The position numbers and the translations under genes are program-made. From positions 667,548 to 731,547 of the forward strand of contig NZ_JAUFPR010000004.1 of the NCBI RefSeq assembly GCF_030409325.1: a DNA stretch of 64,000 nucleotides, given 5' to 3'. The stretch comes from Mucilaginibacter aquaedulcis (lineage in GTDB: Bacteria > Bacteroidota > Bacteroidia > Sphingobacteriales > Sphingobacteriaceae). The notes beneath the pieces are model-generated. The model was given only the letters and a program-made list of their open reading frames with translations. It was not told the DNA's origin and did no database searches. The first letter of the stretch is position 1; each line of letters opens with the position of its first letter. Positions 233 through 58,191 of this stretch are shown here, piece by piece.

Positions 233-834
233 TAAACACCATCATATTTGATTTGGGCGCGGTTTTAATTGATTGGAACCCGCATTACATGTACCGTACC
301 CTGTTTAGTGATGAACAGGAAATGAAAAATTTTTTGGCCGAGATCTGTACCTCCGACTGGAACGAGGAGCAGGATGCTGGCCGGGCATTGCAGGAAGGTA
401 CGGATATATTAGTTGCCCGTTTCCCTGAGCACGAGGCTAATATCCGGGCGTTTTACGGACGTTGGAGCGAGATGCTCGGCGAACCCTTCCATGGCACCGT
501 TGAGTTGTTAAAACAGCTTAAAGCAAGCGGTAAGTATAAAATTTACGCGTTAACCAATTGGTCGGCCGAAACATTTCCGGTGGCTTTAGAGCGTTATGAT
601 TTTTTGGGTTGGTTTGATGGTATTGTAGTTTCGGGCACCGAAAAAATGCGCAAACCTGCACCTGAGTTTTACCAGATCCTGCTTGATCGCTACCAGGTTG
701 AAGCAAACGAAGCCCTGTTCATTGACGATAACTACCGCAACATATTAGCCGCCGAAAAGATGGGTATTAAAAGTATCCACTTTACTTCATCAGAGCAATT
801 GGAAGCAGAGCTAAAGGGGTTAGGCGTGTTGTAA
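229..834 (+). CDS. HAD-superfamily phosphatase, YihX-like
   Basis: A 201-residue HAD subfamily IA hydrolase, probably a cytosolic sugar-phosphate phosphatase. Motif I is FDLGAVLID with the nucleophile Asp8. As in E. coli YihX (glucose-1-phosphate phosphatase), the second Asp of the usual DxD is a Gly. Motif II is the Thr in ALTNWS, motif III the Lys in MRKPAPEFY and motif IV FIDDN. A helical cap (about residues 15-85) lies between motifs I and II, which fits YihX-type enzymes rather than C2-capped HADs. It starts with a 4-nt overlap on the preceding gene. The substrate cannot be read from the sequence. Confidence 0.85.
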   Translation: MINTIIFDLGAVLIDWNPHYMYRTLFSDEQEMKNFLAEICTSDWNEEQDAGRALQEGTDILVARFPEHEANIRAFYGRWSEMLGEPFHGTVELLKQLKASGKYKIYALTNWSAETFPVALERYDFLGWFDGIVVSGTEKMRKPAPEFYQILLDRYQVEANEALFIDDNYRNILAAEKMGIKSIHFTSSEQLEAELKGLGVL

Positions 835-848
835 TTGAATGATAATTG

Positions 849-938
849 TGTCATTGCGAGCGTAGCGTGGCAATCGCGAACTATACAAATAAATCTGCAG
901 AGTTCGCGATTGCTTCGTCGTTCCTCCTCGCAATGACA
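849..938. repeat. GTCATTGCGAG-type palindromic repeat, copy 1
   Basis: An inverted repeat of about 90 bp. The left side reads TGTCATTGCGAG followed by CAATCGCGAACT, and the right side has the complements AGTTCGCGATTG and CTCGCAATGACA. The same words recur at 42705-42795, and a shortened form at 34507-34536. This looks like the REP-like palindromes scattered through many Bacteroidota genomes. It lies in the gap between the convergent HAD gene and sdhB. Confidence 0.8.
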
Positions 939-950
939 AATAGATAAAAT

Positions 951-985
951 AAAAAGGGCTTTGGAATATCTCCAAAGCCCTTTTT
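951..985. terminator. Bidirectional intrinsic terminator
   Basis: A perfect 15-bp stem, AAAAAGGGCTTTGGA and its complement, around a 5-nt loop, with an A-tract on one side and a T-tract on the other. It sits between the convergent HAD gene and sdhB and can serve both. Confidence 0.85.
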
Positions 986-1008
986 ATTTATTACTTCAAC
1001 AGTAGTGA

Positions 1009-1803
1009 TTAAGCACCTCCGTGTTGTTCTTCATGGATACTTTCTTCCCTGAATAACTTGGCGCTGAAAAAATCATTGTTCATGCGCGCGATGTTGGTAA
1101 GCTTAATTTCTTTAGGGCATTCGGCCTCGCAGGCACCGGTGTTGGTACAGCTGCCAAATCCTTCTTCATCCATCTGGGCTACCATAGTTTGTACACGGCG
1201 GTAACGCTCTGGCTGACCTTGTGGTAACAGGCCTAACTGGGTTATTTTAGCCGATACAAACAGCATTGCCGATGCATTTTTACAAGCCGCAACGCAAGCA
1301 CCGCAACCAATACAGGTAGCAGAGTTAAAGGCCTCGTCGGCAATAACTTTAGGGATCGGGATAGCATTGCCATCGGTACTTACACCTGTATTTACAGATA
1401 CGTAACCGCCGGCCTGCTGTATACGGTCAAATGCAGAGCGGTCAACCGCTAAATCCTTCACTATCGGGAAAGCAGTTGCACGCCAAGGCTCAATGGTAAT
1501 GGTTTCACCATCTTTAAAGCTGCGCATGTGCAGCTGGCAGGTGGTAACAGCACGTTTTGGCCCGTGCGGGTGGCCATTGATATATAACGAGCACATACCG
1601 CAAATACCTTCGCGGCAATCATGATCAAAGTGTATAGGCTCATCACCCTTAAGGGTAAGGCTTTCGTTAACAACGTCAAGCATTTCAAGGAATGACATAT
1701 CAGGCGAAATACTTTCAGCCTTGTAGGTCACAAATTTACCCGCTGTTTGAGCGTTTTTCTGGCGCCATACTTTTAGCGTCAGGTTCATATTTCCGTTACT
1801 CAT
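1009..1803 (-). CDS. sdhB: Succinate dehydrogenase/fumarate reductase iron-sulfur subunit
   Basis: A 264-residue iron-sulfur subunit of complex II that passes electrons from the SdhA flavin to the membrane quinone site. Cluster ligands are visible. The [2Fe-2S] ligands are Cys63, Cys68, Cys71 and Cys89 (CREGICGMC). Two further Cys groups, C164-C167-C170-C174 ([11 protein letters not shown]) and C219-C225-C229, provide the [4Fe-4S] and [3Fe-4S] ligands. It is the last gene of sdhC-sdhA-sdhB on the minus strand, separated from sdhA by a 121-bp gap that holds a tandem-word hairpin. The spacing and order are typical for Bacteroidota. Confidence 0.97.
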
Positions 1804-1831
1804 CTTATTATTAGATTTGAGATATGGTTAT

Positions 1832-1923
1832 TTTGTTGATTAGGTGAGTGGTTGATTAAGTGAGTAGTTTTTGTTAGTTAATGAAACCAATCTAACTTAA
1901 TCAACTCAATCAACCATTCACTA
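1832..1923. repeat. Tandem-word hairpin A (sdhA-sdhB gap)
   Basis: An imperfect inverted repeat in the sdhA-sdhB gap. The left arm (1832-1869) contains TTGATTAGGTGAGTGG and TTGATTAAGTGAGTAG in tandem and has no C. The right arm (1889-1923) contains the complementary words CTTAATCAAC and TCAATCAACCATTCACT. It ends at the sdhA stop codon. The same words occur at 3881-3965, 25537-25617 and 31728-31818. Confidence 0.8.
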
Positions 1924-1924
1924 T

Positions 1925-3859
1925 TTACGCGTAATTACGTTGTGTTAAGTGTACCGATTCAAATACCAGTTGCTCTTTGTGCAATTCCTCGGGTTGGTTT
2001 TCGCCTTTAAATTCCCAAGCTGCAACAAATGCAAAGTTCTCATCGTCACGTTTGGCCTCACCGCCTTCTGTTTGTGATTCTACCCGGAAGTGACCACCGC
2101 ATGATTCGCGACGCATCAGCGCGTCGTCAACCATCAGTTCGCCCAGTTCAATAAAATCGGCAACACGACCGGCTCTTTCCAATGATGCGTTCACTTCTTC
2201 GTTTTCGCCAACAACCTTAGCATTTTTCCAGAAGTCGGCTTTAAGTGCCTGTATCAATCCTTTGGCTTTTTTCAGGCCCTCTTCGGTACGCGCCATGCCG
2301 CAATATTCCCACATAATGTGGCCCAGATCGCGGTGATAGGCTTCGGCCGTTTTGGTGCCGTTTAATGCCAGCAATTTATTTACGTGCTCAATTACATCCT
2401 TTTTAGTTTGCTCAAAAGCAGGGTGGCTGGTATCAACCTTTTTAGGGCCAATGGTAGCCAGATAATCGCCAAGGGTGTAAGGAATTACAAAGTAACCGTC
2501 AGATAGGCCCTGCATCAAAGCAGAAGCACCTAAGCGGTTAGCGCCGTGATCACTAAAGTTACACTCGCCCAAAGCGTATAAGCCCGGTACGTTGGTGCTC
2601 AGGTTATAATCAACCCAAAGACCACCCATGGTATAGTGTACGGCAGGGTAAATACGCATTGGCTGTTTGTACGGGTTCTCGTCAGTGATCTGGATATACA
2701 TATCAAACAAGTTACCGTATTTAGCCTTAACGGTATCTTCACCCAAACGTTTAATAGCATCGGCAAAGTCAAGGAACACGGCAAAACCTGATGTACCTAC
2801 ACCGCGGCCATCCTCAACCATTTCCTTAGCGTTACGTGAAGCCACGTCGCGCGGAACAAGGTTACCGAAGGCTGGGTATTTACGTTCCAGGAAGTAATCG
2901 CGGTCGTCCTCTTTAACCTGGTCTGCTTTAAGTGTGCCTTTGCGCAGTTGCTCGGCAATTGCAGCAGTTTTAGGCGCCCAAACACGACCGTCGTTACGTA
3001 ACGATTCAGACATCAGCGTAAGCTTTGACTGGTGATCGCCCGATACCGGGATACAGGTTGGGTGAATTTGAGTATAGCAAGGATTACCGAAGAAAGCACC
3101 ACGTTTGTGTGCTCTCCAGGCTGCTGTTACGTTTGAACCAATAGCGTTTGTTGACAGGTAAAACACGTTGCTGTAACCACCTGTACATAACAATACGGCA
3201 TGGCCCGCGTGTGTTTCAATAGCACCGGTAAGCATGTTACGGGTAACAATACCTTTGGCATGGCCGTCAACAACCACCACATCAAGCATTTCTGTACGGG
3301 TATACATTTTTACTTTACCGGCATGTATCTGGCGGTTTAATGCCGAGTACGCACCTAAAAGTAATTGTTGTCCTGTTTGGCCACGGGCATAAAATGTACG
3401 TGATACCTGCGAACCACCAAAAGAGCGGTTATCCAGCAAGCCACCGTACTCACGGGCAAAAGGAACACCCTGTGCTACGCACTGGTCAATAATATTAACA
3501 GATACCTCGGCCAAACGGTACACGTTTCCTTCGCGGGCACGGTAATCGCCACCTTTAATGGTATCATAAAACAAGCGGTAAACGCTGTCGCCGTCATTTT
3601 GATAATTTTTTGCCGCGTTTATACCACCCTGTGCTGCAATAGAGTGCGCGCGGCGTGGGCTATCCTGAAAGCAAAAAGATTTTACGTTATAACCTAACTC
3701 GGCCAGTGAAGCCGCCGCCGAGGCTCCTGCCAAACCTGTACCTACAATAATAACATCGTATTTACGCTTGTTGGCCGGGTTAACCAGCTTCAGGTTAAAT
3801 TTATGCTTGCTCCATTTTTCGGCTAATGGGCCTTGAGGAATTTTAGCATCTAAACTCAT
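1925..3859 (-). CDS. sdhA: Succinate dehydrogenase/fumarate reductase flavoprotein subunit
   Basis: A 644-residue catalytic subunit that interconverts succinate and fumarate on the cytoplasmic face of the membrane. The FAD-binding [11 protein letters not shown] motif is at residues 40-50. His72 in AHSIAAQGG is the expected covalent FAD attachment site. [10 protein letters not shown] and the [11 protein letters not shown] block near residues 410-460 are typical of the dicarboxylate and FAD sites. The length matches the b558-type SdhA/FrdA of Bacteroidota. It is the middle gene of sdhCAB, flanked on both sides by hairpins built from the same words. Confidence 0.97.
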
Positions 3860-3880
3860 TTCTTATCTAATTTTATATTT

Positions 3881-3965
3881 AGTGAGTGGTTGATGGAGTG
3901 AATGGTGAGTGGTTTTTAACCCGGCCATGCAACTTGAATCAACCCAATCTGACTTAATCAACTCT
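3881..3965. repeat. Tandem-word hairpin B (sdhC-sdhA gap)
   Basis: The left arm (3881-3915) repeats GTGAGTGGTTGATGGAGTGA and GGTGAGTGG and has no C. The right arm carries AATCAACCCAATCTGACTTA and ATCAACTC. It is the weakest inverted repeat of the GTGAGTGG subfamily but uses the same word set as hairpin A in the neighbouring gap. It lies between the sdhA start and the sdhC stop. Confidence 0.65.
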
Positions 3966-3967
3966 AT

Positions 3968-4747
3968 TTAGCGTACGCAAAAAAAGTAGTACACTGGCAT
4001 GGCAGCAAAAGCCAGCGGAATAATTACCGCGAAAAACCAGGTGCCAATAGCGTATACGATAGGTGTATATTTACGGTGTACCCAGCCCAGTGTGCGGAAA
4101 GCGCTCTGAAAGCCATGCAGCAAATGGAACGATAAAGCGCCCATTGCTATTACGTAGATAAGTACATACCAAATGTTGCCAAAGGTGTGTGCCACACGTG
4201 CGTGCAGATCTTTCACCCTAACTATCTCTACATTGTTTTCAACAGATACAGAGTGGCTGAAATCGGCAGATGCCGGTGTGTAGGCCGATTCTGTGGTTTG
4301 GCCTGTGGCCAGGTCTGTGCGGTACTCCTTAAAGGCAACCTCGTTGGTATATTTGTATTTGAACCAAAAGTCGCCCATGTGGATAACGATGAACAGAAAC
4401 AGGATAGAGCCTAACAAGCCCATGTTTTTTGATGACCAGCTGGCATCAGATTTGGCCTGTACGGCGTAACCCACCGGACGAGCCTTACGGTTTTTAACCG
4501 TTAAAATAAGCGCATATAAAGCATGCACTAAAATTGACAGGTACAGAATGTATGCCACAACTTCTATAGGTGGAAAGTGTGTCAGGAAATTGGCATACAC
4601 ATTAAAACCAAAACCATTGTCGTTGCTAAACAGCAACAGGTTGCCCCCAACGTGTACTATAATAAAAGTACACAAAAACAAGCCTGTTAAAGCCATGATC
4701 AGCTTTTTTCCCAGCGATGAGTTAAAGGTTTGTTTAAATTCGCTCAT
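3968..4747 (-). CDS. sdhC: Succinate dehydrogenase cytochrome b558 subunit
   Basis: A 259-residue membrane anchor with five hydrophobic segments (about residues 16-38, 61-82, 108-128, 187-210 and 228-250). This is the single-subunit, di-heme b558 layout of Bacteroidota and Epsilonproteobacteria. Histidines in or near the membrane segments (for example His32, His75 and the VIHMGDFWF segment) are candidate heme ligands. It quinone-couples SdhAB and is the first gene of the operon. A soluble insertion of about 50 residues lies between segments 3 and 4. Confidence 0.93.
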   Translation of the reverse strand: MSEFKQTFNSSLGKKLIMALTGLFLCTFIIVHVGGNLLLFSNDNGFGFNVYANFLTHFPPIEVVAYILYLSILVHALYALILTVKNRKARPVGYAVQAKSDASWSSKNMGLLGSILFLFIVIHMGDFWFKYKYTNEVAFKEYRTDLATGQTTESAYTPASADFSHSVSVENNVEIVRVKDLHARVAHTFGNIWYVLIYVIAMGALSFHLLHGFQSAFRTLGWVHRKYTPIVYAIGTWFFAVIIPLAFAAMPVYYFFCVR

Positions 4748-4861
4748 TATGTAATAGATTTATTTTTAGGCAAAAGTATTTATTATATGCCAAAAGATAG
4801 AAATGCTTTCGGCTTATTGTCTGTGAATTGTCTATTTAGAATCAATCTAAGAAAATGCGGT

Positions 4862-5019
4862 GGGGAGAGGTAAGATATAAGAGTCAAGAATCAAGAATTG
4901 GAAGTTAGGAGCCAGGGGTTGAGAAAACAGGAATAAAGATAAATGATTGAGTGTCTATTCATTATTGCAGGTTTTTTATTCTTGTCTCTTGACTCTCACA
5001 TCTTGATTCTCACCTCCCC
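4862..5019. repeat. Tandem-word hairpin C (pdeM-sdhC gap)
   Basis: The left arm (4862-4898) reads GGGGAGAGGTAAGATATAAG then AGTCAAGAATCAAGAA. The right arm (4979-5019) is its imperfect complement, ending TTGATTCTCACCTCCCC. The arms are built from AGTCAAGA/AATCAAGA words and enclose a loop of about 80 nt. The right end touches the pdeM stop codon. The arms share no sequence with the GTGAGTGG subfamily, only the architecture. Confidence 0.8.
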
Positions 5020-25536: not shown

Positions 25537-25617
25537 TGGTGAGCAGTGAGTGGTTGATTGAGTTAATTGGGTTATAGGAAAACCATTCACCTGATCAATT
25601 CAATCAACCACTCACCA
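25537..25617. repeat. Tandem-word hairpin E (ybaB-serine hydrolase gap)
   Basis: The left arm TGGTGAGCAGTGAGTGG plus TTGATTGAGTTAATTGGGTT and the right arm AACCATTCACCTGATCAATT plus CAATCAACCACTCACCA are imperfect complements over nearly 40 nt with almost no loop. The words are the same as in hairpins A, B and F. Confidence 0.85.
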
Positions 25618-31727: not shown

Positions 31728-31818
31728 TAGTGAGTGGGTTAATTAAGTGAGTGGAGAATGGTTTAAAGATTGTTATAAACCACTCACTTAATCAATCCAT
31801 TAACTACTCACCTCTCAC
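31728..31818. repeat. Tandem-word hairpin F (nuclease-phosphatase gap)
   Basis: The left arm AGTGAGTGGGTTAATTAAG plus TGAGTGGAGAATGGTTTA starts right after the nuclease stop and has no C. The right arm TAAACCACTCACTTAATC plus AATCCATTAACTACTCACC ends 4 nt before the phosphatase ATG. It belongs to the same word family as hairpins A, B and E. Confidence 0.85.
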
Positions 31819-38861: not shown

Positions 38862-38949
38862 TTCATCGGTTCATTAGTTCATTAGGCTTTTTCAATGAGT
38901 TAATGAACTATTTACCAATAAACAAATGAACTAATGTACCAATGAACAT
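38861..38949. repeat. Tandem-word hairpin H (lpxD-lpxC gap)
   Basis: The left arm GTTCATCGGTTCATTAGTTC plus ATTA starts at the lpxD stop codon. The right arm AAATGAACTAATGTACCAAT plus GAACATT ends 6 nt before the lpxC start. GTTCATTA-type words repeat in tandem in both arms and again in the loop (AATGAGTTAATGAACTA). Confidence 0.85.
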
Positions 38950-51739: not shown

Positions 51740-51898
51740 GGATTGAGGGGATTTTTGGACTATGAGACTATTGGACGAAAGACTATGAGATTGTAAGACT
51801 TTTGGATGAAGGACTATAAGACAAAAGATTCTTTTGTCCTTGCTCCTTTTGTCCTTCATCCCATAGTCCAAAAGTCCCATAGTCCCAAAATCCTTCAC
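51740..51898. repeat. Tandem-word hairpin K (YihY-BI-1 gap)
   Basis: The longest of the group. The left arm (51740-51828) starts at the base after the YihY stop and chains GGACTATGAGACT-, TTGGACGAAAGAC- and TTGGATGAAGGAC-type words. The right arm (51829-51898) is its imperfect complement (GTCCTTCATCCCATAGTCC, AAAAGTCCCATAGTCCC). The centre ACAAAAG-ATT-CTTTTGT is perfect. A minus-strand ORF over it is not credible. Confidence 0.9.
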
Positions 51899-52733: not shown

Positions 52734-52815
52734 GTTTACATAAATTTACTTAGCATACACTTTTGAAGGAGCAGAAACTATTGCATATTAAAGCTTTATT
52801 ATGCACCTTTGCATT

Positions 52816-52923
52816 GCTTATAGAGAAAGGCGGAGGGATTAGACCCTGCGATGTCTTAGCAACCTGTACTTCACAAGGTGCTACATTCTACTCAACAGCT
52901 TTAAAGCTTTGGGACAGATAAGC
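52816..52923 (+). ncRNA. SAM-I (S-box) riboswitch controlling metH-metF
   Basis: The core matches the S-box consensus: GAGGGATTAGACCC, TTAGCAACCT, AAGGTGCTACATTC and the closing GGGACAGATAAG. P1 pairs GCTTAT (52816-52821) with ATAAGC (52918-52923). It senses S-adenosylmethionine and should shut off the downstream methionine genes when SAM is plentiful. A second ATAAGC at 52954-52959 can compete for the same 5' P1 strand, with a hairpin of CGAAAGTC (52923-52930) and GACTTTTCG (52943-52951) between them. This is a possible expression platform. Confidence 0.92.
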
Positions 52924-52967
52924 GAAAGTCAACATAACACCCGACTTTTCGAGATAAGCTGTATTTT

Positions 52968-53085
52968 TTAGTATCAAGTAGTTAGTATCAGGTATCAAGA
53001 TTTTTTAGTCTTTTTTATTTGGTGCTACCGAAATCGACGACAGGTTTCTGTACTCGATACTTGATACTAACTACTTGATACTAAC
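52968..53085. repeat. Tandem-word hairpin L, ending at the metH start codon
   Basis: The left arm TTAGTATCAAGTAGTTAGTA plus TCAGGTATCAAGA (52968-53000) and the right arm GTACTCGATACTTGATACTA plus ACTACTTGATACTAAC (53050-53085) match at about 29 of 32 positions. Each arm is a tandem of the roughly 14-nt word GTTAGTATCARGTA. The loop is 49 nt. The right arm runs straight into the metH ATG at 53086, with no spacer. Confidence 0.9.
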
Positions 53086-56000
53086 ATGGATATTAGAAAA
53101 GAATTAGAGAAACGCATACTGGTGATTGACGGTGCAATGGGTACCATGATACAGCGCTACCAGTTATCTGAGAAGGATTTTCGTGGAGAGCGTTTTAAAG
53201 ATCATGCAACTGATTTGCAGGGCAATAACGACCTGCTGAATATAACACGCCCCGATATTATCAAGGCTATTCATGCCGAATACCTGGATGCCGGTGCCGA
53301 TATTATTGAAACCAATACATTCAGTACGCAGATAATTTCATTAGCTGATTATCAGCTGGAGGAATTGGCTTACGAACTAAGCTACGAAGGTGCGCGCCTG
53401 GCCCGTGAAGTGGCCGATGAATACACTCAAAAAGACCCAGCCAAACCAAGGTTTGTTGCCGGTGCTGTTGGTCCTACTAACCGTACGGCTTCCCTATCTC
53501 CTGATGTGAACGATCCGGGCTATCGTGCTGTAACTTTTGATGACCTGGCCGAGGCTTATTATGACCAGGTGCGCGGACTGGTTGACGGCGGGAGTGATTT
53601 GTTGCTGATTGAAACCATATTTGATACCCTGAACGCCAAGGCGGCATTATTTGCCGTTAATCGGTACGCGGAAGAATCGGGCAAACACTTGCCTATTATG
53701 ATATCGGGTACTATTACCGATGCATCGGGGCGTACCTTATCAGGACAAACAGTTGAGGCTTTCTGGAACTCGGTGCGGCATGCCAACCTGCTATCAGTAG
53801 GTTTAAACTGCGCTTTGGGTGCCAAGGAAATGCGCCCACACCTGGCCGAATTATCTGAAAAAGCCAATGTGTTTATATCGGCCTATCCAAATGCCGGTCT
53901 GCCAAATGAGTTTGGCCAGTATGATGAAACCGCGCATGAAACCGCGCACCAGGTTGATGACTTTATAAAAGCAGGCCTGGTTAATATTGTAGGTGGTTGT
54001 TGTGGCACTACGCCCGAACACATTAAATGTATTGCCGATAAGGCAGCTAAACATCCGCCAAGATTAATTCCCGAAATTGAGCCCGACCTGCGCCTGAGCG
54101 GTTTGGAGGCGGTAACCATCAAGCCTGAAAGTATTTTCGTAAACGTGGGTGAGCGTACCAACATCACCGGCTCGCCAAAATTCTCCAAACTTATCCTTGC
54201 TGAAGATTACGAAGCAGCCCTGGCTGTTGCCCTGCAACAGGTAGAAGGCGGCGCCCAGGTAATCGACATCAACATGGATGAGGGCATGATCGATTCGGAA
54301 GCGGTGATGGTGAAATTCCTCAACCTGGTAGCTTCTGAGCCGGATATTGCCAAGCTGCCCATCATGATAGATTCATCAAAATGGACAGTTATTGAGGCAG
54401 GCTTAAAGTGTATTCAAGGCAAGGGTATCGTAAATTCAATCTCGCTTAAAGAGGGTGAAGATAAATTTAAGGAGCAGGCCCGTAAAATATTAAGCTACGG
54501 TGCAGCTGCTGTAGTAATGGCTTTTGACGAAACTGGTCAGGCCGATTCCCTGCAGCGCCGTATCGAGATCTGTAAACGTTCTTATGATATCCTGGTTAAT
54601 GAGGTTGGTTTCCCTCCGCAGGATATTATTTTCGATCCAAACATATTAACAGTAGCCACCGGTTTAGAGGAGCATAATAATTATGCTGTCGACTTTATTG
54701 AGGCTACCCGATGGATAAAGCAAAATCTGCCCCATGCTAAAGTAAGCGGCGGGGTTAGTAATATTTCGTTCTCCTTTAGGGGTAACAATGTGGTACGCGA
54801 GGCCATGCACTCTGCATTCCTTTACCACGCAATCGGTGCGGGAATGGATATGGGTATTGTGAATGCCGGTATGCTGGAGGTTTACCAGGAAATTGATAAA
54901 ACCTTGCTCGAATTGGTAGAGGACGTGTTGCTTAACCGCCGTGATGATGCCACCGAACGCCTGGTTGAATATGCCGATACCATTAAAAGCAAAGGCAAAG
55001 AGGTTGTAAGGGACGAGGAATGGCGCAAGGGAACGGTGCAGGAAAGACTTTCGCACGCCTTGGTAAAAGGCATCATCGAATACCTTGATGATGATGTGGA
55101 AGAAGCACGCCAGGCTTACAGTAAACCGCTTGAAGTGATTGAAGGGCCGCTGATGGATGGCATGAACATCGTAGGTGATCTGTTTGGCGCCGGCAAGATG
55201 TTTTTACCACAGGTAGTAAAATCGGCCCGGGTAATGAAAAAGGCAGTGGCTTATCTGTTGCCTTTTATTGAACTGGAAAAACAACGTGTTATAGACGCGG
55301 GTGAAGATGCAAGCGGGAGCCGGGCCAATGCCGGTAAGGTATTAATGGCTACCGTAAAAGGCGATGTACACGACATTGGTAAAAACATTGTAGGCGTGGT
55401 TTTAGCATGTAATAACTTTGAGGTGATTGACCTTGGCGTAATGGTGCCTGCACAAAAGATCATTGAAGAAGCTAAAAAACAAAATGTAGATATTATAGGA
55501 CTAAGCGGCCTCATCACGCCATCGCTTGATGAGATGGTGCACTTTGCCAAGGAAATGGAGCGCGAAGGCTTTACCATTCCGCTAATTATTGGCGGTGCTA
55601 CTACATCTCGCATACATGCCGCGGTAAAGGTGGCGCCAAATTATTCGGGTGCTGCTATTCACGTGTTGGATGCTTCACGGAGTGTTACCGTTTGCAGCAG
55701 CCTCATGAGTAAAGATAATCGCGAGGGTTATATTCAGGGTATTAAGGATGAGTATGCCAAAGCCCGCGAGGCACATTTGAACAAAAAATCAGACAAGCGC
55801 TTTGTGAACATTGAAGAGGCGCGCAAATCGAAATTTCAAATAAGCCTGGATGGTGATGTTGCGCCTAAACCTGCGTTTACAGGTACCAAAGTATTTGAAT
55901 CATACCCGCTGGAAGAGTTGCTTCCGTACATCGACTGGACACCGTTTTTCCATACCTGGGAGCTTCGCGGCAGCTATCCTAAAATATTTGCAGATAAGTT

Positions 56001-56775
56001 TGTGGGTGATGAAGCCAAAAAGCTGTTTGATGATGCTCAGGTGCTGTTGAAAAGGATAGTTGATCAAAAACTGCTTAAAGCCAGTGGCGTGATAGGTTTT
56101 TGGCCGGCAAACAGCGTTGGTGACGATATTGAATTGTATACCGACGAAACCCGTAAGCACTTGCTTACCCGCATACATACGCTGCGCCAGCAAGCTGAAA
56201 AGGTAAAAGGTGAACCTTACTATGCCCTTTCAGACTTTATTGCACCAAAAGAAAGCGGGGTGCCCGACTACTTTGGCGGCTTTGCAGTAACTACCGGTAT
56301 TGGTTGCGATGAGTTAGTGGCCGAATTTGAGCGCGATCATGATGACTATAATAGCATTATGGCCAAAGCCCTTGCCGACCGCCTGGCCGAAGCCTTTGCC
56401 GAAAAAATGCATGAGCTGGTGCGTAAAGAGCACTGGGGTTATTCAAAAGGAGAGCATCTGAGCACCGAAGAGCTGATCAAAGAAGATTACCAGGGTATCC
56501 GTCCGGCGCCAGGTTATCCGGCCTGCCCTGATCATACCGAAAAAACAACGCTATTTGATCTGTTAGAGGCTGAAGATAATGCGCATATGCACCTTACCGA
56601 AAGCTTGGCCATGACACCGGCTGCCTCTGTAAGTGGTTTCTACTTTGCGCACCCGCAGGCCCGTTATTTTGGCCTGGGTAAAATAAGTAAAGATCAGGTT
56701 GAGGATTATGCGGTACGTAAAAATATGTCGCTTGAAGAGGTTGAACGCTGGCTTGGCCCTAATATAAATTATTAA
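53086..56775 (+). CDS. metH: B12-dependent methionine synthase
   Basis: A 1229-residue full-length cobalamin-dependent enzyme that moves a methyl group from methyl-tetrahydrofolate to homocysteine. The homocysteine domain (1-325) has the zinc Cys in GLNCALGA and [10 protein letters not shown]. The pterin domain (about 340-610) has [14 protein letters not shown]. The helical cap and B12 domain (about 640-890) have [13 protein letters not shown] (DxHxxG near 760) and the [13 protein letters not shown] block. The SAM-dependent reactivation domain (about 910-1229) has [15 protein letters not shown]. All four modules are intact. It is the first gene after the SAM-I riboswitch. Confidence 0.98.
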
Positions 56776-56778
56776 TTA

Positions 56779-57228
56779 AGGAGCGGGGATTGAGGTGCGA
56801 GTGCGTACTTAGCTTATTATAATAAAGTAATTAAATGACATTTACAGATTTAGAGGCTTGGAAAGAGGCAAGGATCATTGTTAAAATGGTTTATGATTGT
56901 ATATTATCTTTTCCTAAAGATGAAATGTATGGCTTACAATCACAAATAAAAAGATCCGTTATTTCCATTCCTTCAAACATAGCAGAGGGTTGCGGGCGTA
57001 GCCATCCGAAAGATACTGTGCGATTTTTTTATATTGCCAGAGGCTCGGCTTATGAGCTGGAAACACAGCTTTATCTGTCTTATGATTTGAGTTTTTTAGA
57101 TGAAATAACACTAAATCTTTTATTAGAGAAATTAACCAGAGTAGGAATATTATTGGCGGGACTTATAAATTACCAGAAGGCTCAAATTACAAATTGATCC
57201 CGCACCTATAACCCCGCTCCTCGCACCA
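56779..57228. mobile_element. Intervening-sequence-like element: inverted arms around an S23-family gene
   Basis: Arms AGGAGCGGGGATTGAGGTGC plus GAGTGCG (56779-56805) and CCCGCACCTATAACCCCGCT plus CCTCGCACC (57199-57227) are imperfect complements. AGGAGCGGGG pairs perfectly, as does AGGTGCG. They enclose one gene for a four-helix-bundle protein. The left arm starts 4 nt after the metH stop and the right arm ends 7 nt before the metF ATG. The layout mirrors 23S rRNA intervening sequences with an internal ORF, but in a protein operon. Mobility is inferred; no target duplication was found. Confidence 0.6.
56835..57197 (+). CDS. S23-family four-helix-bundle protein (rRNA intervening-sequence protein/Avd-like)
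   Basis: A 120-residue all-helical protein with the family hallmarks: DLEAWKEAR near the N-terminus, FPKDEMYGLQSQIKRSV (26-42), SIPSNIAEGCGRS (44-56) and ARGSAYELETQL (68-79). Relatives occur as ORFs inside 23S rRNA intervening sequences. The fold is that of Avd, the accessory protein of diversity-generating retroelements that binds nucleic acid and reverse transcriptase as a pentamer. No reverse transcriptase or variable repeat is present. It is more AT-rich than metH and metF and lies between inverted arms, as if inserted into the met operon. Confidence 0.9.
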   Translation: MTFTDLEAWKEARIIVKMVYDCILSFPKDEMYGLQSQIKRSVISIPSNIAEGCGRSHPKDTVRFFYIARGSAYELETQLYLSYDLSFLDEITLNLLLEKLTRVGILLAGLINYQKAQITN

Positions 57229-57234
57229 AAACAC

Positions 57235-58191
57235 ATGAAAATTACGGAGCACATCCAGAACGCCAACGGCAAAACACTTTTTTCTTTTGAACTGATACCG
57301 CCTTTAAAAGGGCAAAGCATACAGGGTATTTATAACGCCATTGATCCTTTAATGGAGTTTAAGCCGCCGTTTATTGATGTAACATCATTGCGTGAGGATT
57401 ATATTTATAAACAACATGCTAATGGCTTATTGGAGAAACTGAGTTACCGTAAACGCCCCGGTACTATAGCTATTTGCGCGGCCATCATGAACAGGTATAA
57501 GGTTGATACCGTTCCGCATTTACTGTGCGGCGGCTTTACACGCGACGAAACCGAGAACGCCCTAATCGAACTGGAGTTTTTAGGGATTGAAAACGTACTG
57601 GTGTTACGTGGCGATGCGCGCAGCAGTGATTCGTCGTTTGTGCCAACGCCAAACGGGCACTGCTATGCTACCGATCTGTTGCAGCAGGTTGTGAATATGA
57701 ACAATGGTATTTACCTGCATGAAGATTATGATAATATTGCTAAAACGCATTTTTGCATAGGTGTGGCAGGCTATCCTGAGAAGCATTTTGAGGCCCCTAA
57801 CCTGAAAACCGACTTTAAATATTTGAAGCAAAAAGTTGATATGGGCGCCAGCTTTATTGTTACCCAGATGTTTTTCGATAATCAGAAATACTTCGACTTT
57901 GTGAATAACTGCCGGGCTAATGGTATCAATGTGCCTATTATACCAGGTTTAAAACCTATCACTACATCAAAACAACTTATTAATCTGGCCAAAACATTCC
58001 ACATTGATATGCCTGAAGATCTGTGCGATGCCATTAACGGATGCAAATCTGAAAAAGACGTAAAAGACCTGGGTATTGAATGGATGATTAATCAATGTAA
58101 GGAGTTGATCAAATTTGGTGTTCCCGTACTGCATTTTTATACCATGAGCAACGCCGGCCCAACCCGCCGCATTGCCGAAGCTATATTTTAG
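57235..58191 (+). CDS. metF: Methylenetetrahydrofolate reductase
   Basis: A 318-residue flavoenzyme that makes 5-methyl-THF, the methyl donor for MetH. TIM-barrel motifs include TLFSFELIPP with the catalytic Glu, FIDVTSLREDY, NVLVLRGDA, FCIGVAGYPEKH and ASFIVTQMFFDNQKYFDFV. All expected substrate and FAD contacts appear to be present. It is the second gene under the SAM-I riboswitch, separated from metH by the S23 element, so the transcript must pass through the element to reach it. Confidence 0.96.
   Translation: MKITEHIQNANGKTLFSFELIPPLKGQSIQGIYNAIDPLMEFKPPFIDVTSLREDYIYKQHANGLLEKLSYRKRPGTIAICAAIMNRYKVDTVPHLLCGGFTRDETENALIELEFLGIENVLVLRGDARSSDSSFVPTPNGHCYATDLLQQVVNMNNGIYLHEDYDNIAKTHFCIGVAGYPEKHFEAPNLKTDFKYLKQKVDMGASFIVTQMFFDNQKYFDFVNNCRANGINVPIIPGLKPITTSKQLINLAKTFHIDMPEDLCDAINGCKSEKDVKDLGIEWMINQCKELIKFGVPVLHFYTMSNAGPTRRIAEAIF

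Follow-up and report, generated by a model that had tools for sequence, protein, structure and literature searches.

An S23 gene between inverted heptad arms in the metH–metF gap of Mucilaginibacter aquaedulcis as a probable copy of a transposase-free mobile element

The window studied here—the whole stretch of 64,000 nucleotides from Mucilaginibacter aquaedulcis—contains the genes metH and metF, both names being taken over from an earlier note on this DNA, and the gap between them is occupied by an element composed of a gene for an S23-family protein with an inverted arm on each side (Table 1). The fit is tight, only 3 nt separating the metH stop codon (TAA, 56773–56775) from the 5' arm and 6 nt separating position 57228 from the metF start codon (ATG, 57235). 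The S23 gene is the sole open reading frame of at least 80 residues between the arms, no transposase being encoded there; it matches the profiles TIGR02436 and PF05635 with E-values of 1.8e-32 and 5.6e-34, respectively, and its GC content (34.2%) is lower than that of both metH (47.1%) and metF (42.0%). The earlier note had claimed that an S23 gene alone is enclosed by inverted arms spanning the gap, that its GC content is below that of its flanks and that the operon is preceded by a SAM riboswitch; all three claims hold, the last by a match to the Rfam model.

Table 1 Features of the metH–metF locus of M. aquaedulcis (positions in the window)
Feature	Position	Strand	Remark
S23/IVS-type element	56779..57228	+	occupies the metH–metF gap
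5' arm, heptad-like GGAGCGG GGATTGA GGTGCGA (from 56780)	56779..56799	+	18/21 match to the reverse complement of the 3' arm
3' arm; reverse complement, including 57223–57228, reads GGTGCGA GGAGCGG GGTTATA GGTGCGG	57201..57221	+	
S23-family four-helix protein, 120 aa	56835..57197	+	PF05635/TIGR02436
metH, upstream gene	53086..56775	+	metH C-terminus upstream of metF in 58/58 gaps
metF, downstream gene	57235..58191	+	
SAM riboswitch upstream of metH	52815..52924	+	Rfam RF00162, 62.8 bits
Solo heptad hairpin, AGTATCA type, without S23 gene	52968..53084	.	arms 52968–52999 and 53053–53084; between riboswitch and metH ATG

As for the arms, the blocks AGGAGCGGGG (56779–56788) and AGGTGCG (56793–56799) of the 5' arm pair with the blocks CGCACCT (57201–57207) and CCCCGCTCCT (57212–57221) of the 3' arm. 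They had been described as about 27 nt long and perfectly paired. Their inverted nature stands, but the best ungapped match covers 21 positions, 18 of them identical, and a length of 27 nt is obtained only by counting a further heptad-like CGCACC (57223–57228), which is without a partner in register. The score of this match was reached by none of 5000 mononucleotide shuffles and by none of 2461 placements with equal spacing in other parts of the window. In the predicted RNA of the element the arms pair with each other (MFE −116.8 kcal/mol, z −2.85, equalled by one of 100 shuffles).

S23 proteins are known from inserts in rRNA, where their gene is an oddity, and also occur very widely under the name 'four helix bundle protein', without a known function; both S23 and Avd form pentamers. 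For the AlphaFold model of the window protein (mean pLDDT 96.9), the nearest folds are the S23 structures 2gsc (TM 0.91) and 2rld—both being entries with five chains—followed by Avd from the diversity-generating retroelement (DGR) of a Bordetella phage (4dwl; TM 0.78, 13% identity, Foldseek E 0.023). Further fold matches are the DGR ribonucleoproteins 8ube and 8ub7, the values reaching, with 4dwl included, a TM of up to 0.78 and best Foldseek E-values of 0.02–0.04. With regard to selection, dN was well below dS in 11 of 12 S23 ortholog pairs (e.g. 0.007 versus 0.20), dS being undefined in the twelfth, which argues that S23 is maintained as a working protein.

The genome of M. aquaedulcis itself possesses seven PF05635 genes, and in the relatives set S23 matches occur in 58 of 60 genomes, with 1–15 in each of them. 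Outside that set, 51 of 98 sampled cyanobacterial genomes and 232 of 296 genomes of another phylum sample have PF05635, the latter sample taking in a Fodinibius genome (G090). Eight S23 matches, with repeat arms at two of the loci (L188 and L204), are present in a genome titled Methanophagales and labelled archaeal (G087, the source of locus L130), the binning of which is unchecked. It should also be noted that one S23 gene of Riemerella anatipestifer (L291, NZ_CP081938.1) lies near lepA on a record labelled as a plasmid, which is perhaps a chromosome fragment. S23 genes have been noted in cas loci (PMC3936711), and one of the loci collected here (L292) has an S23 gene with heptad arms between cas6 and cas4.

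Inverted arms are found far beyond the window. They were detected in 102 of 127 S23 loci at p ≤ 0.01 and in 112 at p ≤ 0.05 (mononucleotide shuffles), the loci being those with enough flank among top-scoring matches, rather than a random sample, and coming from the relatives set (37), named genome contigs (79) and IMG/VR (11). At p ≤ 0.01, the relatives' S23 genes, which the earlier note had envisaged might lack complementary arms, carry them in 35 of 37 loci, the corresponding numbers being 61 of 79 for the named contigs and 6 of 11 for IMG/VR; 25 of the 127 loci are without arms at this threshold. In a simpler test, 92 of the 127 loci exceeded the 99th percentile of 80 control ORFs taken from the same loci, and the shuffles, the placements and these control ORFs together rule out chance as the source of the arms. 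At p ≤ 0.01, the further sets gave inverted arms in 27 of 31 cyanobacterial loci, in 17 of 29 top matches of the phylum sample that includes Fodinibius (the other 12 being without them) and in 23 of 26 loci of six additional genomes, some of which are shared with the first set. Locus L130 was left out because of its short flank, as were L249, without an HMM match, and two more short-flank loci, so that 86 of 89 loci were tested in the further sets. The overlapping sets were merged to 215 distinct S23 genes; arm mismatches and position were analysed in 179 arm-bearing elements.

The arms are degenerate tandem heptads—with a period of 7, sometimes 8 or 6—that have a G in phase. Among 99 arms, the identity of the sequence with itself was 0.54 at lag 7 and 0.52 at lag 14, compared with 0.25–0.31 at all other lags up to 19 and 0.31 in shuffled arms; within the range 4–11, the best lag was 7 in 86 and 8 in eight of these arms. 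The period of the 163 elements in which it is clear is 7 in 135, 8 in 22, 6 in four and 9 in two cases. After phase alignment, 92% of the heptads have G at one position; the nucleotide before it is A in 69% and the one after it T or A in 83%. A column consisting of G only is seen in 90 of 119 arms versus five of 119 shuffled ones, the same maximisation having been applied to both. The 5' arm is, moreover, poor in C, G exceeding C in 90 of 102 cases. The arms of the window fit this general pattern, the 3' side being read as its reverse complement. The heptad make-up, the generality of the arms and the solo hairpins described below go beyond the earlier note.

Judged from the sequences, S23 units are placed between the stop codon of one gene and the start codon of the following one, or they replace a hairpin of 23S rRNA. 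In the survey of the 179 arm-bearing loci, where the neighbouring genes are uncurated long ORFs, the element is co-directional with its upstream gene in 157 of 172 cases versus 110 of 143 control gene pairs (p = 5e-4), and with its downstream gene in 139 of 163 (p = 0.08 versus control pairs). If the neighbours are co-directional, the 5' arm begins at a median of 2 nt past the upstream gene, and a median of 7 nt separates the 3' arm from the next one.

The metH–metF gap itself was obtained from 58 of 61 searched genomes of the genus (G006 dropping out because its metF is split over two contigs). An S23 element is present in 22 of the 58 gaps, that of M. aquaedulcis included, always co-directional with the genes (22/22), and 36 gaps are without it; in one of these (L062) the gap is empty, the two genes meeting as TAAATG with 0 nt between them. 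The arrangement metH–S23–metF is thus far from the uniform conservation that the earlier note had named as an argument against an inserted element. Arms at p ≤ 0.01 accompany 20 of the 22 gap elements, the values for the other two being 0.025 (L094) and 0.13 (L085). By their N-terminus and arms, the 22 fall into three groups: the first one, of MHNF type with AGTATCA-like heptads, has 13 members (one of them, L092, broken); the second, of MxFT/MVYT type with G-rich heptads, has five, among them that of the window; and the third, of MTGSF type with hexad-like AGTRGC arms, has four. If clustered at 50% protein identity, they form two clusters, groups one and two falling together. Many of the other S23-less gaps hold unrelated hairpins; a remnant of the 3' arm is retained in two gaps (L074 and L075), another contains one element next to the remnant of a different type (L085), and in a further one the S23 tail with the 3' arm occurs in repeated copies (L050). 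Based on these fillings, remnants and types, the site seems to have been repeatedly filled, replaced and decayed.

Two other kinds of gap filling were seen. At least 15 of the 58 metH–metF gaps (e.g. L040, L041 and L043) are occupied by hairpins of another, palindromic family (GTCATTGCGAGG...), which is also found at positions 849–913 of the window. An inverted-arm element of the type CCCCCAGCCCCCTGAAGGGGGAG / CCCCCTTTAGGGGG, which has no room for an S23 gene, spans the gap from stop to start in L049, L052, L059, L083 and L087.

Comparison of closely related sequences indicates that the S23 gene and its arms make up one unit, which is present or absent at the same site. The earlier note had suggested comparing the metH–metF gap of related genomes for presence or absence of the whole arm-to-arm unit; such variation was found on plasmids and in one rRNA operon, the window's own site varying only between species. 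Seven cyanobacterial plasmid sites have counterparts, 85–97% identical, without the S23 element. At the first one, the element separates two genes on plasmids of Trichormus variabilis ATCC 29413 and Scytonema NIES-4073. For six records whose flanks are about 97% identical, the alignment breaks into two pieces and the element is missing. In the three of these six that were inspected, a gap of 13 nt stands against 441 nt in Trichormus and 427 nt in Scytonema, the insert being flanked on both sides by GTAAT. The same site has a decayed copy in Nostoc (C052) and arms without a gene in Brasilonema pBOCT2. Of the remaining six sites, whose counterparts are likewise 85–97% identical, one is a gap at TraM (with an arm-only version in Nostoc ATCC 53789) and two are gaps of a single operon, each occupied in a different plasmid. 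The others are a gene pair that follows an integrase, two adjacent hypothetical genes, and the nrd genes, between which the insertion is antisense. The six sense insertions on plasmids are all at the upstream stop codon or within about 40 nt of it. Target-site duplications are inconsistent: exact direct repeats of 5 nt were seen at two plasmid sites (GTAAT and TTCTA) and of 3 nt at one, and 10–42 nt of the counterpart are missing at four.

Concerning rRNA, the plasmid AZO_p2 of Azospirillum lipoferum 4B carries an S23 gene inside 23S rRNA (Rfam LSU at 786–3984, ORF at 1950–2351 of L339), the arms of which are again heptads (17-nt local match, reached by none of 200 shuffles). The 23S copy on AZO_p3 of the same strain is identical over 437 and 391 flanking nucleotides and has a 19-nt hairpin in place of the 473-nt insert, so the insert substitutes for the hairpin rather than being simply added. 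From this one case, the classical intervening sequence (IVS) and the intergenic S23 element share their anatomy.

Signs of very recent transposition were not seen, elements at different sites being at most 80% identical in DNA in one set and 83% on plasmids; the latter value belongs to the element of the first plasmid site and one of Aulosira plasmid2, which match essentially over the element span. Many S23 elements have long been present at orthologous sites. A recent burst of the S23 gene within the genome of M. aquaedulcis can be set aside as well, its seven S23 genes having different arms and no pair from different sites exceeding 80% DNA identity.

Gene-less heptad hairpins are common. 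The type with AGTATCA heptads has 95 matches in the genome of M. aquaedulcis (both strands counted) and recurs in 35 of the 61 genomes sampled from the genus. All of the 20 places inspected have inverted arms with loops of 16–129 nt, too short for an S23 gene; the best lag is 7 in 19 of them, the left gene is not more than 22 nt away in 18 and the right gene not more than 20 nt in 15. None of the seven S23 genes of this genome has AGTATCA arms, and six matches of the type are present in G036, a genome without any S23 match. Dependence of the solo hairpins on a resident cognate S23 gene is therefore rejected; they outlive such a gene or do not need it. One solo hairpin of this type lies between the SAM riboswitch and metH (Table 1) and may influence riboswitch-controlled expression; matches to it are found about 4 kb before metF in G075 and G022, which by spacing is just upstream of metH. 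Three hairpins of the window (25546–25615, 31729–31805 and 1851–1905) have arms like those of another S23 locus of the same genome (L004, GTGAGTGGTTGATT) and are possible gene-less derivatives; the first one matches the L004 flank and 1851–1905 by blastn, the second was assigned only by eye. Other heptad- or octad-like inverted pairs without S23, located in gaps between long ORFs, are those at 4859–5017, 38868–38940 and 51748–51884.

Based on the above results, the feature of the window is quite probably a copy of a widespread mobile element that lacks a transposase and belongs to the class of the 23S-rRNA IVS. That it is an inserted, IVS-like unit extending from arm to arm was proposed in the earlier note; this is well supported and more general than proposed there, the interpretation of that note as a whole being supported in part. 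The unit would consist of a 5' heptad array, the S23 gene and the inverted 3' heptad array, about 420–515 bp in total. The oligomeric S23 protein may recognise the heptads of its own arms, perhaps with one subunit per repeat, and could take part in copying or inserting its own element. An insertion would be tolerated because of its intergenic position and because it is either folded out of the RNA or excised from it. One such element would have entered the metH–metF gap, with different S23 elements settling there in other species.

The arms are, in addition, tied to the protein that they enclose. With pairs having blastn-homologous flanks excluded, arms are more alike the higher the identity of their proteins (Mantel r = 0.27, p ≤ 0.002), and the same holds for the sharing of one period (p = 0.004). 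The mean arm score is about 12 below 50% protein identity and 36.5 at 70–90%, and 90% of 50 pairs at 70–90% identity have arms alike, it being understood that distant orthologous sites may remain among these different-site pairs. The arms match best in one register, the identity being 0.86 at register 0—which the alignment itself favours—0.64 one repeat off and 0.23–0.32 at non-multiples of 7. When the heptads were permuted, 36 of 119 arms reached p ≤ 0.06, the median p being 0.17; few permutations are possible and the power is little, so this result argues only weakly for register specificity.

Among the other explanations, a resident module for RNA processing or attenuation, in which RNase III cuts the hairpin and separates the metH and metF messages while any mobility is incidental, fares best, although it is rather unlikely. 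It accords with the co-direction with the upstream gene, the tight fit into operon gaps and the pairing of the arms in the predicted RNA, and hairpins of rRNA IVS are substrates of RNase III (PMC4990558). The two arms also co-vary within elements: at orthologous sites, an arm matches its own opposite arm better than the opposite arm of the other species in 199 of 226 pairs (15 groups, p = 1.8e-4), although part of them bring together different S23 types at one site; the comparison of the within-element match with the same-side arm of the other species gave p = 0.10 by group. A selected RNA helix should, however, favour G-U pairs, and such a preference is missing. The 756 arm mismatches of the 179 elements comprise, in the sense transcript, 155 of G-U type, 150 of A-C type and 451 transversions, and the isolated ones comprise 28 of G-U versus 39 of A-C type. 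With no G-U bias under two alignment settings or in isolated mismatches, selection for an RNA helix is rejected as the cause of the arms; RNA pairing is probably not what keeps them alike, cleavage of the transcript being still compatible with this. Against a resident module speak, moreover, the 36 metH–metF gaps without S23 and the fact that a stem does not require tandem heptads.

Somewhat less likely again is that S23 serves, like Avd, as an accessory to a reverse transcriptase supplied in trans, which would move the transcribed element. The fold matches to Avd (4dwl) and to 8ube and 8ub7, the mostly sense insertion and the single RVT_1 gene of this genome, which lies on another contig (C8, the window being on C4), are in line with it. 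In the relatives set, however, 32 of the 58 genomes with S23 (that of M. aquaedulcis included, some being incomplete) are without any RVT_1 match. A reverse transcriptase is therefore not needed in residence for maintenance, and its obligatory presence is rejected; intermittent access to one would still permit movement. The reading least to be expected is that the arms arise around a stable gene as by-products of replication slippage and template switching (quasi-palindrome correction), with the S23 protein uninvolved, since, in spite of closely similar elements differing by whole heptads (L279 versus L280, L288 versus L301) and a missing G-U bias that fits a process at the DNA level, it leaves unexplained the enrichment specific to S23 (92 of 127 loci above the 99% control-ORF level), the phased G, the link between arm sequence and protein subfamily, and the sites without the unit, with arms that lie about 400 nt apart.

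Returning to the mobile element, the known rRNA inserts look like one case of a widespread and little-noticed unit. The shared heptad architecture, together with the match between arms and protein subfamily and the plasmid and rRNA pairs, makes the S23 puzzle testable with respect to both the binding target and the movement of a 430-bp unit without a transposase. A far broader, tentative view is that S23 elements are a distinct transposase-free mobile class in Bacteroidota, Cyanobacteria and others, in which S23 would read a phased-G array of heptads, octads or hexads with one subunit per repeat and spread the hairpin along with its gene-less derivatives. The arrays might then be a main source of unexplained heptanucleotide repeats and heptad stem-loops, including the inverted pairs of Xanthomonas and the trnL P6b stems of Nostoc, and the rRNA IVS would be insertions into rRNA. 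In the open-licence literature of PMC, among the matches listed, S23 genes were not recognised as tied to heptad arms or as mobile elements located between mRNA genes; that coverage leaves out most subscription journals and preprints, so this absence is weak evidence of novelty.

With regard to known systems, DNA transposons and their MITEs, as well as REP/RAYT, share with S23 elements the inverted arms—terminal inverted repeats in the former—and arm-only copies in intergenic gaps; S23-less sites in close relatives, as expected of a transposon, are seen at the plasmid and rRNA sites, and at the window site only between species. The S23 unit differs from them in having no transposase, in the resident gene being S23 and in arms made of tandem heptads. 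The likeness to Avd of the DGRs is one of the four-helix fold only, no reverse transcriptase being adjacent.

Known heptanucleotide repeats resemble the arms as tandem 7-mers that are intergenic or placed in a stem-loop. They have been described as GGGAATC in Xanthomonas and GGGGA(C/T)T in Nostoc (PMC4692102), as TAACTGA in Beggiatoaceae (PMC4679880) and, among others, for an element of Geobacter (PMC2700814); 70 inverted pairs of such a repeat are found in Xcc. The P6b stems of Nostoc trnL contain the heptads TDNGATT and NNTGAGT, the origin of the classes being not known (PMC4476775), and for heptad stem-loops of that kind S23 elements offer a source. It is a proposal that S23 elements gave rise to the known heptanucleotide repeats; the words S23 and four helix are absent from PMC4679880 and PMC4692102. 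In one cyanobacterial S23 locus (L230) both arms are NNTGAGT heptads, a motif known as Class II in the P6b stem of Nostoc trnL.

The closest relative is the 23S-rRNA IVS. The description in PMC4990558, as far as that text was available, has no heptad arms, no families of arms and proteins and no solo derivatives, and gives for the IVS of Coxiella a 28-bp stem and 428 nt. The common features are an S23 ORF between complementary arms and a size of 420–515 nt, the rRNA copy of A. lipoferum 4B being heptad-armed as well. The window element, however, lies between mRNA genes, outside rRNA, and it is therefore better said to work like an rRNA IVS and to be related to it than to be one.
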